29,530 nucleotides of DNA from IMG/VR virus record IMGVR_UViG_3300027972_000044, positions 1-29,530 of that record. The stretch is one strand, 5' to 3'. This document shows positions 5,484-28,958 of the stretch, in pieces. Both the position numbers and the translations under genes were made by a program. Position 1 is the stretch's first letter. Each line of letters opens with the position of its first letter. This DNA comes from a virus. Under the pieces are notes generated by a model that was not told the DNA's origin, made no database searches, and was given only the letters and a program-made list of their open reading frames with translations.

Positions 5484-6426
5484 TACTAACTAAAATATTT
5501 TTCCTATTCTTAAGAACAGAATGTCTTTCCCTTGACAATGCACCACATTCTACACATCTGATATTACGATACTTACCAGTAGGTGTAAAATAATAAAACC
5601 CCGCAAAGACAAGATGATTACTGCCACAATGAGGACAGACAGGTTCTTCTGAATCTACATATAAATTATAATTAGGATGTCCCTTAATATAAGGACGCAT
5701 AATTAAATATAATTCTTCTAATACCTTAACATCCTGTTTATTATAAAATTCCATATATTGTAAAGCCTCAACATTTCCTGCAAGACAGGATGACCAGAGT
5801 CTAAAATCGGTGTCAGATTTACCTTCTATCCCAAAAGTCCTTGCCAATCCTTCCAACTTATTGCTGGAAAAACCAAATTCTTTTTTAGCTACCTTCTTAG
5901 TATCTATCTGCTGATAAAAAGTAGTAGGAGGTAATCCATGAACAAGAAATCTTGCTTTTATTCTAGGTATATCAAACTTTTCTCCATTATGAGCTATTAC
6001 AATATCTGCTTCATTAAGCACTTTCCAAAGATTAGCTATTATCCTTGAATCATCTTCTGCTAATACTTCTTCTGGAGTTAATTTGTTAGAGAATACTTCT
6101 TCATCTAATAGCCACTTAGCTGCCCAAGTAATTATAAACCAATCAGATATAATCTGATCTAAATAAACATTCTGTTTCCAGAGATTCCAGACGAAAGCTT
6201 TTATAGGAGCAGTTTCAATATCTAATATCAAGATTCGGGGCAAAGAGCTCTCTATCTTCTTATTTTCAGGAACATCCTCACAATATTGTTCCATTCTGAC
6301 AATACGCTTTGCTTCCCTTATAAGTTCAGGAGTAGTTTTTAACCAATCTGCGAGCTTATTAGCTCCCATCTCCATCATATAAGGTTTCTCGTGAATCTTG
6401 CTGATTATTCTGGATAGTTCTATCAT
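5473..6426 (-). CDS. DEDD-family 3'-5' exonuclease with C-terminal zinc ribbon
   Basis: 317 residues. An N-terminal helical part (NKLADWLKTTPELIREAKR) resembles a helix-turn-helix. A DnaQ-like RNase H fold follows: ILDIETAP supplies D69 and E71, HNGEKFD supplies D152, and YNKQDV near residue 230 supplies the last aspartate with a preceding tyrosine, as in DEDDy enzymes. The C-terminus has paired cysteines, CPHC and CVEC, with the spacing of a zinc ribbon. No polymerase domain is attached, so this is a stand-alone exonuclease for DNA or RNA. It lies in the terminase operon, not the replication arm, so a role in processing packaged or recombining DNA is possible. The start overlaps the preceding gene by 68 nt; a later start is possible. 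Confidence 0.8.
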   Translation of the reverse strand: MIELSRIISKIHEKPYMMEMGANKLADWLKTTPELIREAKRIVRMEQYCEDVPENKKIESSLPRILILDIETAPIKAFVWNLWKQNVYLDQIISDWFIITWAAKWLLDEEVFSNKLTPEEVLAEDDSRIIANLWKVLNEADIVIAHNGEKFDIPRIKARFLVHGLPPTTFYQQIDTKKVAKKEFGFSSNKLEGLARTFGIEGKSDTDFRLWSSCLAGNVEALQYMEFYNKQDVKVLEELYLIMRPYIKGHPNYNLYVDSEEPVCPHCGSNHLVFAGFYYFTPTGKYRNIRCVECGALSRERHSVLKNRKNILVSNGK

Positions 6427-6595
6427 TTGTATAAATTTTAATTTTAACTGTACAGGGATCTGTTCTTTTTAAGGAGTAAGATACTTCTACTTCGGGAATA
6501 TAAAGACATAATCTACAGACAGTTTCAAAACTTTTCTGTAGTTTATAAATATCCTCTTCTGTAATCGTAACTTCACCTATATAAAAACTACTCAT
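6359..6595 (-). CDS. Hypothetical protein
   Basis: 78 residues from the ATG at 6595; an upstream in-frame TTG is less likely. It overlaps the genes on both sides (8 nt and 68 nt). Alternating hydrophobic and polar residues in the middle (VEVSYSLKRTDPCTVKIKIYT) suggest beta strands. No family recognised. Confidence 0.55.
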   Translation of the reverse strand: MSSFYIGEVTITEEDIYKLQKSFETVCRLCLYIPEVEVSYSLKRTDPCTVKIKIYTNDRTIQNNQQDSRETLYDGDGS

Positions 6596-13000: not shown

Positions 13001-14683
13001 ATGTTCAAAGCAAAAATCAAACCCCAAAAACAGACATCTGAATATTCTGTAGTTAAAACTCAGATAGGTGGATTCATAAAAGCAGGTCTTAAAGGATCTG
13101 CTGAAACAAAATCAGGCAATCTTGCAAAGAAATATGCTCATCTTGATGATCCTTTTCTTACTCAGTTTGGATCTGTTGGACAGTATAAACAGAAAAGATC
13201 TTTTGAGGAGATAGCAAACGATTGTGAATCTCTCTGGTCAAAAGACAAAAGACTTTCAATAGTCTTTATGGTTTATCTGAGAATAATAACAAGAATTGTT
13301 GTATTCTTTGATGGCACATCAACCAGAGTAGCTCAGAAAGGTGCAGAACTGAAACATGAGTCTATCATGAGGATGATCTGGCTCTTTGTTAAAAACGAAA
13401 GTTCTTTTTGGAAGAATATAGGTCTCTTTATATCTGTTGGATCTTGGAAAGATATCTTTACCATGCTTCAGTATGATTATATGTATCATGGTTGGAAAGA
13501 CAGAGTTCTTAATTGGGATAAAATAACCAATTTTATTCTTACAGGATTAGAGAATTCAAACACTGTTAATCTTGTCAAGAAATATCTTCCTCAGTTAAAA
13601 GCAAGATCTAAATGTACCACTATTGAATCAGAAGCTGATACTTATATAGCTAAGTTTATATGCCATAAAATATTTGGAGAAAATGAATCTCTGAAGATGG
13701 CTAGTTATAAAAAGTATAGAAAGATGAAATCTTCCGGTACAGCTCATTCCTGGCAACAGTTGATCAGCCAAAAAAAATTTGATCGTATTGATTTCAGTAA
13801 GATACATGGTAGAGCCTTATCTCTTCTTGTAAGAAGTAAGTTTCTTAAAAATCATGATCTTGTTGATAAGTATAATGCTTGGATTGGTGATCCTGAAACA
13901 AAAGATGTTAAATATACTGGATTTGTTCATGATTTATTTCAGACTTGTGAAAAATACAGAACTCTTGTTTCTATACCTGTACAAGAACAAACCACTATAA
14001 TTAAGCAATTTGATACTCTTGTTAAAAAAGCAGGAGAAAAGCCTATGACTAAGTATATTGTAGTCAGGGATACTAGTGGTTCAATGCGTAGTCAAGCCAA
14101 AGGATGTAATATGTCCAGTGGTAATATTGCCAAGGCTCTTTCATTATACTTTAGTCAATTTCTAACAGGAGCTTTCTCTAATGCCTGGATAGAATTTAGT
14201 CGTGAAGCTTTAATGCATTACTGGTCTGGAAATACTATTCTTGAAAAATGGTATAATGATAGTTCTAATTATGTAGGTAATACTGATTTTCTAAGTGTTA
14301 TACATCTTTTTATAAAGATAAAAGCACAAGGAATATCAGAAAGTGAATTTCCAGAAGGTATACTTTGTATATCTGATGGTGAATTTGACGGAGCATCATT
14401 AGCAGATACAAATGTAGAATACGCATTAAAACTACTTCGCAATGCTGGTTTTTCTGAAGAATATGTAAGAAATTTTGTTATTGTTCTTTGGAATATACCT
14501 AATATATTTTATTGGGATTCTACTACTAAATTTGAAACATATGAAGGATCATATCCTAATGTGTTTTATTTTGGTGGATACAATGCCAGTGTAATATCTT
14601 TTCTTTCGGATAAAGTAAAAACCACAAAAGAATTATTTGATTCAGTAATGGATCAGGAAGTTCTTAATAGAGTGGAATTGTAA
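13001..14683 (+). CDS. Ro60-like RNA-binding protein (TROVE/DUF2828-like with VWA domain)
   Basis: 560 residues, close to Ro60 in length. Residues 1-340 are helical and basic, with blocks such as DDPFLTQFGSVGQY, SKDKRLSIVFMVYLRI and SVGSWKDIFTMLQY, which fit the TROVE/DUF2828 helical-repeat ring that in Ro proteins binds misfolded RNA ends and Y RNA. Residues 350-550 form a von Willebrand A domain with a complete MIDAS: D357-T-S359-G-S361 (in VVRDTSGSMRS), T428 (GNTDF) and D459 (CISDGEFD). In bacteria Ro proteins act with a Y RNA and nucleases in RNA quality control. Here the gene is followed directly by about 970 nt of apparent structured RNA, matching the usual Ro/Y-RNA neighbourhood. Fold family is fairly sure; Ro function is inferred. 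DUF2828 proteins of unknown role are the alternative. Confidence 0.8.
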   Translation: MFKAKIKPQKQTSEYSVVKTQIGGFIKAGLKGSAETKSGNLAKKYAHLDDPFLTQFGSVGQYKQKRSFEEIANDCESLWSKDKRLSIVFMVYLRIITRIVVFFDGTSTRVAQKGAELKHESIMRMIWLFVKNESSFWKNIGLFISVGSWKDIFTMLQYDYMYHGWKDRVLNWDKITNFILTGLENSNTVNLVKKYLPQLKARSKCTTIESEADTYIAKFICHKIFGENESLKMASYKKYRKMKSSGTAHSWQQLISQKKFDRIDFSKIHGRALSLLVRSKFLKNHDLVDKYNAWIGDPETKDVKYTGFVHDLFQTCEKYRTLVSIPVQEQTTIIKQFDTLVKKAGEKPMTKYIVVRDTSGSMRSQAKGCNMSSGNIAKALSLYFSQFLTGAFSNAWIEFSREALMHYWSGNTILEKWYNDSSNYVGNTDFLSVIHLFIKIKAQGISESEFPEGILCISDGEFDGASLADTNVEYALKLLRNAGFSEEYVRNFVIVLWNIPNIFYWDSTTKFETYEGSYPNVFYFGGYNASVISFLSDKVKTTKELFDSVMDQEVLNRVEL

Positions 14684-14687
14684 TTAT

Positions 14688-14820
14688 AAAAGTAAACTCT
14701 CTCTGAAACTCACATAATTCTCACATCAGTAGTGAATCCTATAAAAGAAGAACCCTATGATACTAGTTTGGGTAGTGAGAAAATATCTAGGATTATATAC
14801 TAGTGAGAGTTTACTTTTTT
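14688..14820 (+). ncRNA. End-paired structured RNA, candidate Y-RNA-like partner
   Basis: AAAAGTAAACTCTC (14688-14701) pairs perfectly over 14 bp with GAGAGTTTACTTTT (14805-14818), enclosing 103 nt and ending in T residues. Inside, TTCTCAC (14718-14724) pairs with GTGAGAA (14775-14781), ACCC (14752-14755) with GGGT (14770-14773), and AATCCTA (14735-14741) with TAGGATT (14788-14794). The last pairing crosses the first inner one, giving a possible pseudoknot. A closed end helix, a large internal loop and a U-rich 3' end about 130 nt along are the layout of Y RNAs, and the element begins 5 nt after the Ro-like gene. I do not see the conserved Ro-binding helix of animal Y RNAs or a clear tRNA-like module. 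The outer stem and T-tract could also serve as terminator of the Ro-like gene. Confidence 0.6.
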
Positions 14821-14824
14821 AATT

Positions 14825-15006
14825 TAATCTTCTTGCTGAAGACAAACAGTAAGCTTAAAGGAGCTGCCCAAAAACGCTCATGGGTTCTTATAGTCATGCC
14901 AAGATGACGTTGTTTGTTGTAAGATAATAAATTTAGCCAGCCTTTGGCGATGGAACAGGCATAAAACACCGCCATTTATTCCGCTTGGAAACGGACAGGA
15001 AGATTA
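14825..15006 (+). ncRNA. Second structured RNA, about 180 nt, unknown family
   Basis: TAATCTTC (14825-14832) pairs with GAAGATTA (14999-15006), continued after a bulge by CTG/CAG. Inside are ACAAACA (14842-14848) with TGTTTGT (14911-14917) and hairpin GTCAT-GCCAAG-ATGAC (14893-14908). GAGC/GCTC and GCCCA/TGGGT (14861-14885) interlock and could be alternatives or a compact pseudoknot. GCCA/TGGC lies at 14936-14948 and TCCG/CGGA at 14980-14995. It is clearly GC-richer than its flanks. It resembles no tRNA, tmRNA, RNase P or 6S sequence that I recognise. It directly follows the end-paired RNA, so both may come from one precursor. Confidence 0.5.
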
Positions 15007-15031
15007 TTTTTGATAATTATATATAAATCTT

Positions 15032-15126
15032 AGGATGCAAAAACAGCAAGTTTAAATACTATATGTAAATAAACGATAGCTATGAGTATCTTAATAAGAA
15101 TAATTAGATAATAAAACTTGCATCCT
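15032..15126 (+). ncRNA. Diverged first unit of the hairpin string
   Basis: AGGATGCAA (15032-15040) pairs perfectly with TTGCATCCT (15118-15126). Two bases after the 5' arm comes ACAGCAAG, the same motif and position as in the six regular units downstream. The loop is longer (about 67 nt) and contains a copy of the linker-like TTAATAAG at 15091-15098. A TATTTTTG at 15005-15012 could be a -7 promoter element for the string, but no good -33 element precedes it. Confidence 0.5.
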
Positions 15127-15176
15127 GTTTATATTATTATTATCTTTGTAAAATATTAAAAGAAAATAGCTTAATA

Positions 15177-15584
15177 AGAAGTCATACAGCAAATATAAAA
15201 ATTTCAATATGGGTTTGAAAAACAATCGACTTCTGATAAGAGTAGTTACAGCAAATAACTTACTATAAGATCGCCAAAAATGACCTTTATGTAAAACTAC
15301 TCTGACAAGAATGGTTACAGCAAATAAATATATAACATACAATTTTGGTTTGTAAACGTTAAAGATACCATTCTGATAAGGTTAGATACAGCAAATAATT
15401 AAAAACAATAGCCTTCTAAGCTGTCAAGTTTGATCATTCTAACCTGATAAAGTCTCATACAGCAAATATATTAAGCAATAATCTGATAAATTATCTCGCT
15501 AAATACTGAGACTTGATAAGATTACTAACAGCAAATAATAAAAAATATACTGTAAATATATTCTATAAATAGTAATCTGATAAA
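15177..15584 (+). ncRNA. Tandem string of six covarying hairpins
   Basis: Six units repeat every 59-71 nt. Paired arms are 15177-15183/15228-15234, 15239-15247/15295-15303, 15308-15315/15367-15374, 15379-15386/15438-15445, 15450-15457/15507-15514 and 15519-15526/15571-15578. Stems are 7-9 bp, perfect, and different in sequence in every unit. Consecutive hairpins are separated by exactly four bases, GATA (once GACA), giving the apparent linker TGATAAG. Each 5' arm is followed within 0-2 nt by ACAGCAAATA, and the remaining loop of 32-39 nt is AT-rich and not conserved. Conserved single-stranded motifs with compensating stems argue for selected RNA (or single-stranded DNA) structure. Not a CRISPR array: the repeat is too short and interrupted by the variable arm. 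Function unknown; position suggests a link with the Ro-like protein. Confidence 0.75.
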
Positions 15585-15650
15585 TAAATTAGTATTCACT
15601 AAAAACTCAAAGCCACGAAAAAATTAATCTTTTTGTATTTCATTAGTTTA

Positions 15651-22871: not shown

Positions 22872-22954
22872 GCTTGGGTGGTGGAATGGTATACACGTTG
22901 GACTTAAAATCCAATGGTCATTAGGCCGTGAGGGTTCGACTCCCTTTCCAAGTA
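22872..22954 (+). tRNA. tRNA-Leu (anticodon TAA)
   Basis: 83 nt, class II. Acceptor GCTTGGG pairs with TCCAAGT (with end wobbles), discriminator A, and the D-arm region reads GGTGGAATGGTATACAC. The anticodon stem TTGGA/TCCAA encloses CTTAAAA (anticodon TAA), followed by a variable arm TGGTCATTAGGCCGT and T arm GAGGGTTCGACTCCCTT. No CCA is encoded. It reads UUA, the commonest leucine codon expected in so AT-rich a phage. Confidence 0.95.
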
Positions 22955-22982
22955 CTATTTTAAAAATTTTAAAAATTAATAA

Positions 22983-27065: not shown

Positions 27066-27776
27066 ATGACAAGAAAACCAATAATAGGAATACCCGGATG
27101 GAAAGTTGGAGATAATAGTTTTGGTGTTACTTTACCATATATGGAATTTTTTGAACAATATGGAATAGTTAAAGTATTAACTTTAACAGAAGAAGTAGAC
27201 AATTCTATAGATCTTTTAGTAATACCCGGAGGATCTGATATAGATCCCTTAAGATATGGAGCAAAACCTAATTTTAATAATACACGACCAGATCCTATTA
27301 AAGAATATTTTGATGTAAAAATACTTCCTCAATATATTAAAGCTAATGTTCCTATCTTTGGAATATGTAGAGGCATTCAGACTATTGCTGTTTTGTTTGG
27401 TGGTGTTTTAATACAACATTTATATAATCATGAGTCTAATGATTCTTTAGACAGAGCTAAAGCAGTTCATAATATGATTGTTACTAATCATAAATTAGAA
27501 TCGGAATTAGTTAACTTTAAGAACGGTTATAATAAGGGAAAAGGAATCAAAGTAAATTCTCTACATCATCAATGTGTATCTAGTAAAAATCTTCCAGATT
27601 GTTTAGAAGTAATAGCTACTTATGTAGGTAAATCTAATTATGTTTCTATAGAAGCAATAAAACATTCTTCACTTCCTATAATGGCTGTTCAATATCATCC
27701 AGAAGAAATGGGATTTGATGTATTAAGTGATTACATGATTCAAAGTTTAATATCTAAAAGTAAAAATTATGCATAA
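27066..27776 (+). CDS. Class I glutamine amidotransferase-like peptidase (C26, gamma-glutamyl hydrolase type)
   Basis: 236 residues. Family marks: IPGGSDIDPLRYG, nucleophile C101 in FGICRGIQ, and H211 and E213 in VQYHPEE. PuuD-type enzymes hydrolyse gamma-glutamyl bonds. It overlaps the next gene by 8 nt, and the ATP-grasp gene follows, so the three form one unit. In such predicted amidoligase systems the peptidase is thought to trim or remove the added amino acids. Direct substrate unknown. Confidence 0.85.
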   Translation: MTRKPIIGIPGWKVGDNSFGVTLPYMEFFEQYGIVKVLTLTEEVDNSIDLLVIPGGSDIDPLRYGAKPNFNNTRPDPIKEYFDVKILPQYIKANVPIFGICRGIQTIAVLFGGVLIQHLYNHESNDSLDRAKAVHNMIVTNHKLESELVNFKNGYNKGKGIKVNSLHHQCVSSKNLPDCLEVIATYVGKSNYVSIEAIKHSSLPIMAVQYHPEEMGFDVLSDYMIQSLISKSKNYA

Positions 27777-28161
27777 AGTATTTGTATATGGATCTTTATT
27801 AAAAGGATTAGGAAATCATAGATTACTCGCTGATTCTACATTCTTAGGAGAAGATAATACTAAGCCTGAATTTCTTATGGTAGATCTTGGATGGTTTCCT
27901 GGTATAATAGAAGACATTGATGGTGTTTCTATTAAAGGAGAAGTTTATGAAGTATCTAATGATACTCTAAGTTGGTTAGATTCTTTAGAAGGATATAGAC
28001 CGTCTAGCCCTTCTTTTGGTTTATATAATCGTAAACAAATTGATACTAAATTTGGTAAAGCTTTAGTTTATATTTATAATCATTCAGGAAAAGTATTTAC
28101 TTCTGATAAATTAGTTAAAGACGGAGATTGGAGATCTCACTATCAAAATAAAAAAAGATGA
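27769..28161 (+). CDS. Gamma-glutamylcyclotransferase-like protein (AIG2 family)
   Basis: 130 residues. The start VFVYGSLLKGLGNHRLL is the family's YGSL substrate loop, and IKGEVYEVSNDTLSWLDSLEGY carries the conserved catalytic glutamate before GY. The fold releases 5-oxoproline from gamma-glutamyl amines. It overlaps both neighbours (8 nt and 4 nt). Together with the amidotransferase and ATP-grasp genes it suggests making and clearing of gamma-glutamyl-type linkages. Confidence 0.85.
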   Translation: MHKVFVYGSLLKGLGNHRLLADSTFLGEDNTKPEFLMVDLGWFPGIIEDIDGVSIKGEVYEVSNDTLSWLDSLEGYRPSSPSFGLYNRKQIDTKFGKALVYIYNHSGKVFTSDKLVKDGDWRSHYQNKKR

Positions 28162-28958
28162 AAAAATTTGTCCAGATAAGAACAAAAAATTCAACAGCTA
28201 GACCTCTTCAAAGGTCTATTTTATTTGATGATTGGGCTATTGTAAGACTAGGTTCTCGTACTCCTACTGAAAATTGTTCCAGAAAACCTAGGAATTTTAT
28301 AGAAGTAAATACTATAGACGCTATTGAAAATAGTAGATCTAAGCTGAGAATGAAATCTTGTTTTTCTAAGTTAAAAGTTCCTCAAGCTGATTGGTGGCGA
28401 GTAGGAAGTATTCAAAATACAAATACTATGCCTTATCCGTTAGTGTTAAAAAGAGTTTTTGGATTCCAAGGTAGAGGAATGAGATTAATTAATACAAAAG
28501 AAGAACTTAATGATTGGTTCGATGCTAACGGTTCTGAAGAAGGTTGGTATTTTGAAAGATTTTATAATTATGCTCGTGAATATCGTCTTCATGTATCTAT
28601 TGCTACTGGAGTATTTTTAAGTTGGCGTAAACTCAGAACTAAAGAAGCTACTAACAGATGGTTTTTTAATTCTACTAATTCTAATTGGGTAGGAGAAGAT
28701 CATAATCTTTTTGATAAACCTAAATGTTGGAAAGATATGGAAAAAGCAGCTGTAGATTCTCTTAAAGCTGTGGGACTTGATATAGGAGCTGTTGATATAA
28801 GAGTTCAATCTAATACACAAGAAAATCCTAAATTTATTGTTTGTGAAATTAATAGTGCTCCTGCTTTAGGAGAATTAGGGATTGAAAAATATAAAGAAGA
28901 AATTTTAAAAATATTACAAAATAAAAAACAAAATGATAGATATAAAACTTCTTTCTAA
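28158..28958 (+). CDS. ATP-grasp ligase
   Basis: 266 residues. Motifs in order: RLGSRTPT near residue 32, LVLKRVFGFQGRGMRL (ATP-binding lysine and glycine-rich loop), YFERFYNYAREYRLHVS, GAVDIRVQ, and CEINSAPALGELG with the metal-binding E-x-N. Family members join a carboxylate to an amine using ATP. In the three-gene unit it is the probable synthetic step, attaching an amino acid to a protein or small molecule. Substrate unknown. Confidence 0.85.
   Translation: MKKFVQIRTKNSTARPLQRSILFDDWAIVRLGSRTPTENCSRKPRNFIEVNTIDAIENSRSKLRMKSCFSKLKVPQADWWRVGSIQNTNTMPYPLVLKRVFGFQGRGMRLINTKEELNDWFDANGSEEGWYFERFYNYAREYRLHVSIATGVFLSWRKLRTKEATNRWFFNSTNSNWVGEDHNLFDKPKCWKDMEKAAVDSLKAVGLDIGAVDIRVQSNTQENPKFIVCEINSAPALGELGIEKYKEEILKILQNKKQNDRYKTSF

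Follow-up and report, generated by a model that had tools for sequence, protein, structure and literature searches.

Described Ro60 and Y RNA systems

YrlA-type Y RNAs (RF02553) are encoded beside a Ro60-fold protein and have their ends paired into one stem. The arrangement is a basal stem with D, T and acceptor arms (PMC8394870). Y RNAs of this type are described with Ro60/Rsr in bacteria and phages (Chen et al. 2014, as cited in PMC7790460 and PMC12282133). One proposal is that YrlA competitively inhibits an anticodon nuclease (PMC7790460). Here a related locus was analysed in virus record IMGVR_UViG_3300027972_000044, of which 29,530 nt (the window) were studied. Its island at 13,001-15,650 encodes a Ro60-like protein followed by a string of small hairpin RNAs, referred to as units, whose ends are likewise paired into one stem. 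The phage units differ from YrlA in occurring many in tandem and mostly with other heads (an anticodon arm, an anticodon arm plus T-arm, or helices 69 to 71 of 23S rRNA, H69-H71). Phage Ro-like proteins and phage YrlA-type Y RNAs are already known, and the multi-unit arrays with diverse, swapped cargo appear to be new. No account of head swapping, or of arrays that share an ACAGCAA frame and bear anticodon-arm and 23S heads, turned up in the literature searched, with the primary Y RNA survey (Chen 2014) outside its reach.

In Listeria phage CKA15, a relative of P100, an Rsr-like protein was detected in purified virions, and very abundant non-coding RNAs, unidentified in that account, lie within 2 kb of its gene and might be Y RNAs according to the authors (PMC12282133). 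P100 holds three units of the present motif. The motif, the tRNA heads and the arrays are not described in the consulted passages of PMC12282133. The virion location of the CKA15 protein fits an early role. Phage tRNAs counter tRNA-cutting defences, that is, anticodon nucleases (PMC11555353, PMC10264068). As proposed for the units, these are translation RNAs supplied by the phage against tRNA cutting, but they are functional replacements whereas the unit heads cannot decode.

The Ro60-like protein and its setting

The island opens with one long gene.

13001..14683, plus strand: Ro60-like protein of 560 aa, with a helical-repeat N-terminal part and a von Willebrand factor A (vWA) domain carrying the metal ion-dependent adhesion site (MIDAS) motif D357-T-S-G-S361

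By sequence this open reading frame (ORF) falls in Pfam DUF7788 (1.2e-8), and DUF2828 was matched in 11 of 17 relatives. No window protein matched Pfam TROVE (PF05731). The structure was predicted with AlphaFold (AF2; mean predicted local distance difference test score, pLDDT, 86.7; predicted template modelling score, pTM, 0.86). The model aligned to Ro60 (2i91 and 1yvr) over 420-436 residues with a VIA-align Z of 18.4. With 2i91 the 436 aligned residues covered nearly the whole length at a root mean square deviation of 4.4 and 11% identity. Z was 14.9 with the Ro60 of Thermus phage phiLo (9l5y) and 13.8 with Deinococcus radiodurans Rsr (2nvo). Unrelated vWA proteins reached Z 10, well below the Ro60 value, and the name Ro-like is therefore correct by fold. 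The predicted architecture is that of Ro60, a helical-repeat ring plus a vWA domain. The MIDAS residues (DxSxS) D357, S359 and S361 were invariant among 8 and among 17 homologues.

A sequence-only reading had described this region as an island of a Ro-like, RNA-binding-type protein and three kinds of structured RNA, all read in one direction, in a crAss-like phage. The protein part was borne out by the predicted fold and not by a TROVE match, and the common direction holds. The gene-poor stretch of almost 1 kb is real, with about 970 nt (14684-15650) lacking a convincing gene. On one side of it is the Ro-like gene and on the other a lysis gene of the glucosaminidase type (PF01832, E 3e-17), so that the island does end at the lysis genes as claimed. 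The window portal and terminase matched phage families and the closest relatives of the terminase are crAss-like phages, which supports the placement of the window as a fragment of a crAss-like, gut-type phage.

The hairpin string

Seven end-paired RNA units lie at 15032-15578, six of them regular (15177-15578) and one divergent (unit 0). A unit consists of a unit-specific stem of 7-9 bp, an unpaired strand ACAGCAAAUAA, an inner hairpin, a 3' arm and a linker GAUAA/GACAA. The ACAGCAAAUA strand is conserved in every unit and the GAUAA-type linker in six of the seven.

15032..15126, plus strand: unit 0, divergent, end-paired; stem AGGATGCAA/TTGCATCCT; ACAGCAA at 15043; linker not conserved; head without assignment
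15118..15148, plus strand: candidate Bacteroidetes-type promoter TTG-N20-TATCTTTG, directly ahead of unit 1
15177..15234, plus strand: unit 1; stem AGAAGTC/GACTTCT; inner hairpin TTTCAA-TATGGGT-TTGAAA (15202-15220), non-canonical, possibly a Pro(UGG) anticodon arm or a D-arm
15239..15303, plus strand: unit 2; stem AGAGTAGTT/AACTACTCT; inner hairpin without assignment
15308..15374, plus strand: unit 3; stem AGAATGGT/ACCATTCT; inner hairpin TACAA-TTTTGGT-TTGTA (15338-15354), possibly a Gln(UUG) arm or a D-arm
15379..15445, plus strand: unit 4; inner hairpin ATAGC-CTTCTAA-GCTGT (15408-15424), an anticodon arm with the tRNA-Arg(UCU) loop
15450..15514, plus strand: unit 5; inner hairpin ATAAT-CTGATAA-ATTAT (15478-15494), an anticodon arm with the tRNA-Ile(GAU) loop
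15519..15578, plus strand: unit 6; inner hairpin AATATA-CTGTAAA-TATATT (15544-15562), an anticodon arm with the tRNA-Tyr(GUA) loop

As anticodon arms the heads of units 1-3 are non-canonical. Units 3-5 fold as a helix, 1 nt, an anticodon arm, 3 nt and a helix, a spacing that resembles tRNA position 26 and the variable region. The minimum-energy fold of unit 6 differs from the anticodon-arm pairing. No Rfam family matched the island at the gathering threshold. The same candidate promoter stands directly ahead of the arrays in four relatives (L025, L026, L027 and L037); about 2 chance matches to this pattern are expected per strand of the window. Scans for sigma-70 promoters and terminators gave match numbers at chance level only.

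The pairing of the outer stems was assessed on 59 units with 50 distinct stems, collected on adjacent motifs only, with no selection on stems and without use of the register. In fixed register 6.54 of 7 positions were Watson-Crick, compared to 3.55 of 7 when the arms were swapped between units. Each of stem positions 3-7 showed several pair types. On this covariation the hairpin string, as the sequence-only reading had called it, is a real structured RNA with paired ends.

A CRISPR array or anti-CRISPR repeat RNA was also considered for the repeats and was rejected, the stem sequence not being invariant (the same 50 stems in 59 units).

Heads of the units

In 28 of 109 short units from the window and its relatives, a CUNNNAA loop of 7 nt was closed by a stem of 4 bp or longer. 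The mean in 200 dinucleotide shuffles was 0.6 (maximum 3), and reversed or complemented sequences gave 1. At this shuffle rate of about 0.006 per unit, the occurrence in three of the six regular window units (4, 5 and 6) is not due to chance. The loops are those of real tRNAs, Lys UUU being the commonest, followed by Cys, Thr, Met/Ile CAU, Arg, Asn, Phe, Lys CUU, Ile and Tyr. The stems beneath them are AU-rich and differ from unit to unit, so that the loop is the part kept. Other short-unit loops (ATTGGTA/TTTTGGT) could be D-arms or Gln/Pro arms. No short unit had a T-arm, the six regular units of the window included.

Long units in relatives had a T-arm in 50 of 75 cases (0-1 in shuffles). 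ARAGORN predicted a complete tRNA in 20 of the 75 only after the head was circularised; the linear heads gave 0, as did 20 shuffle sets. By their sequence these heads are tRNAs whose ends lie at the anticodon; the acceptor stem is capped, and the unit stem replaces the anticodon loop. Four units matched E. coli 23S rRNA 1909-1938 (H69-H71), two of them with E 5e-5 over 26 nt at 88%. Further long units, among them those at L034 1411, L066 5952 and L085 5656, have structured heads that are neither T-arm tRNAs nor H69-H71 and are possibly mimics of other rRNA or RNA.

Heads were exchanged between close relatives. Across the gene, contigs L054 and L055 share about 92% identity, and at a corresponding position each has a unit with stem AGTTTTCAT/ATGAAAACT. 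The head of this unit is a Cys(GCA) arm joined to a T-arm in one contig and, in the other, a tRNA whose T-arm precedes its D-arm. The neighbouring units differ too. In L065 and L087, which are 99% identical, one base differs at an anticodon position (CTACAAA vs CTGCAAA). The array of L054 is interrupted at 5905-6480 by an insertion of about 600 nt with an apparent reverse-strand reading frame, suspected to be a homing endonuclease.

Linkage of the units to the Ro-like gene

A DNA pattern of linker and motif was searched against IMG/VR viruses and returned 46 contigs. Thirteen had at least two structured units, and a Ro-like gene stood beside the array in 13/13 (L004 included). The reverse search began with the protein. 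A search for relatives with one protein found none and an alignment was needed as query, which gave 46 viral contigs with relatives of the Ro-like protein. Units lay downstream in 35 and upstream in 3 more, with candidates in a further 5 by a laxer rule whose chance rate is about 1 per locus. The strict rule counted 138 same-strand units downstream, 2 opposite-strand units and 11 units upstream (shuffles 3.0). These results support a link between protein and hairpin string in both search directions.

The joint occurrence of protein and RNA in relatives, on which the sequence-only reading had staked its claim, largely survives. No multi-unit array was found away from the protein. On the protein side, two of the 46 close relatives were without any unit and a third was cut off at the contig end; 5 of the 43 positive relatives depend on the lax rule. 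The same reading had joined the protein and all three kinds of RNA into one ribonucleoprotein (RNP). That claim is supported for protein and hairpin string and is not supported for the other two elements, which were not found with the system in relatives. Among the three functions it had offered (capture of host RNA, protection of phage RNA, countering an RNA-based defence), the last now looks the best on sequence grounds because the hairpins imitate tRNA and rRNA targets, a mimicry that the sequence-only reading had missed.

In phage Lbo-JY46 of Leptolyngbya an array follows immediately after the Ro-like gene. Distant Ro-like genes (about 21-24% identity) in Listeria phage P100, Enterococcus phage EFDG1, Synechococcus phage B23, Mycobacterium phage Lumos and Bacillus phage FADO have about 3 units each nearby, on either side. 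Salmonella phage Munch had no units in the examined flank of its Ro-like gene, and no clear units were seen at Firmicutes chromosomal TROVE loci (a limited sample of 9 loci with flanks of about 1.5 kb). In P100 a ROOL-like large RNA (L104 833-1384; 86 of 99 bits, just under the cut-off) adjoins the Ro-like gene, tRNAs and Y-like units. A phage contig in a Lachnospiraceae metagenome-assembled genome (L116) encodes a Ro-like protein 61% identical to that of the window with one in-frame TGA, possibly a case of stop-codon recoding. No convincing unit was found near this gene.

Likeness to known RNA families

The RF02553 model aligned end to end to permuted units of EFDG1 (44.9 bits), Lumos (39.3 bits) and L034 (35.8 bits), all below the family cut-off of 69 bits. 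The window gave no RF02553 match. Both YrlA and the permuted units have a head with D, T and acceptor arms and without an anticodon arm. The RF02553 consensus is without the ACAGCAA strand which the phage units carry. Judged by the anatomy read from their sequence, the permuted units belong to the YrlA type of Y RNA.

Dictyostelid Class I RNAs (RF01414, PMC7919456) share with the units an AAG start, a short variable stem, a UUACAGCAA strand, a variable head and a CUG end. RF01414 scored 34.1 bits at 15178-15235 of the window and 39.3 bits in the Leptolyngbya phage; the gathering threshold of 41.5 was not reached. Class I RNAs differ from the units in being eukaryotic single genes whose known binder is the RNA recognition motif (RRM) protein Rnp1A and not Ro. 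The likeness is either convergence or a shared recognition element. Positions 147-204 of contig L053 also resembled RF01414 in sequence and shape, in the range of 34-39 bits together with the window match. A Hatchet ribozyme over the Rfam cut-off (75.1 bits) was present at L036 3304-3454, on the Ro-locus contig of a relative.

Other features of the window

Two further elements lie between the Ro-like gene and the hairpin string.

14690..14820, plus strand: end-paired element followed by a T run; arms of 22 nt, 91% complementary
14826..15010, plus strand: 185-nt element with paired ends

The sequence-only reading had seen these as an end-paired and a multi-branched element of about 180 nt. Their folds beat shuffles modestly (z -2.4 and -2.2; 4/200 shuffles equally good for each) and are modest, single-sequence predictions. 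BLAST and nhmmer across about 98 related loci found no convincing homologue of 14690-15010. A 22-mer from the second element had no match in an IMG/VR scan and the element had no Rfam match. Both may be part of the hairpin-string transcript.

Elsewhere the window has a tRNA-Leu(UAA) gene (22872-22955) and, at 27066-28958, a peptidase C26 of the glutamine amidotransferase type and, one gene further, an ATP-grasp-like protein.

Proposed function

The favoured reading, to which we give about even confidence, is that the locus encodes a phage RNP of a Ro60-fold protein and a tandem Y-RNA-like transcript, whose swappable translation-RNA heads are decoys against enzymes that cut or modify tRNA or rRNA. 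The transcript would be processed into single small units. By analogy with Ro60, the constant frame (closing stem and ACAGCAAAUA strand, with GAUAA linkers between units) would be the handle held by the Ro-like ring. Each head would imitate the anticodon arm of a particular tRNA, such an arm joined to a T-arm, a complete tRNA in circular permutation with its break at the anticodon, or 23S H69-H71. Because of what they imitate, the heads may be read as bait for enzymes recognising tRNA arms or H69-H71, and would act as decoys or competitive inhibitors of host enzymes that cut or modify tRNA or rRNA in anti-phage defence. The Ro-like protein would display and stabilise the heads, and the repertoire would change through head swapping. 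Anatomy, pairing, linkage, mimicry and cargo swap come from the sequence; Ro binding, processing into units and decoy action are what we infer.

Several points weigh against the decoy proposal. About two thirds of the short heads are not canonical anticodon arms. The permuted tRNAs have no anticodon loop, so that their decoy action would be limited to enzymes recognising the tRNA body and could not extend to anticodon nucleases. Salmonella YrlA was not cut by the nuclease tried (PMC7790460), and no cognate defence gene is known for the present phage, whose RNP is predicted from sequence.

Somewhat unlikely, in our view, is a classical Y RNA scaffold or gate, where each unit would sit in the Ro-like ring and use its tRNA-like head to tether a tRNA-binding host enzyme (polynucleotide phosphorylase, PNPase, or another nuclease). 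Such a RYPER-like decay or surveillance machine, with arrays as several tethers, would agree with the Ro60 fold, the RF02553 alignments of the permuted units and the precedent of D. radiodurans Rsr-Y RNA-PNPase (cited in PMC7790460, PMC8394870 and PMC12282133). A tether for one effector should, however, keep its head, whereas the heads here are diverse, anticodon-specific and swapped among near relatives, and many are merely a 17-nt anticodon arm. A single tether accounts less well for head diversity, identity at the level of the loop and swapping than does an arms race with defences that cut tRNA and rRNA. An RNA repair or quality control role is improbable. There tRNAs or rRNAs cleaved in defence would sit in the Ro-like ring, at a site that the units gate or compete for. 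Ro60 does bind misfolded RNA (2i91, 9nep), rsr-yrlBA operons with RtcB respond to tRNA halves (PMC7790460) and an RNA ligase gene adjoins the Ro-like gene of phage Munch. Yet that ligase-bearing phage showed no units in the examined flank of the gene, and no RNA ligase or kinase gene was recognised in the window in a search that was not exhaustive.

The tRNA clusters near the locus in several phages would suit functionless remnants of tRNA genes captured by a mobile repeat. We hold this very improbable, as frame and stem are kept by compensation and the anticodon loops are exact on stems unrelated to tRNA. The compensatory stems also speak against the least probable alternative, in which the repeats work at the DNA level or regulate the lysis operon in cis as RNA (an attenuator, recombination or packaging site). 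Its appeal is the position just upstream of the glucosaminidase gene, but the tRNA mimicry is confined to one strand, and other phages place units upstream of the Ro-like gene with different genes downstream.

A wider form of the decoy proposal is tentative and rather doubtful. Phages of many bacterial phyla would share one Ro-binding handle and mount on it a modular, fast-exchanged set of RNA decoys, namely anticodon arms from selected tRNAs, tRNAs reduced to the body, and 23S H69-H71. Virions may contain the Ro-like protein, and dictyostelid Class I RNAs may have the same recognition element as the handle. If the handle is shared, those RNAs would be Y RNAs. The arrays make it testable why bacterial and phage Y RNAs mimic tRNA. 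A presumed target can be read from each head (tRNA-Lys UUU, Tyr GUA, Ile GAU or 23S H69, for instance), and the natural head swaps in close phage relatives are ready-made mutants. If the heads are decoys, the arrays would use RNA to counter immunity that cuts tRNA and rRNA, and would reveal the nucleases that a phage encounters.

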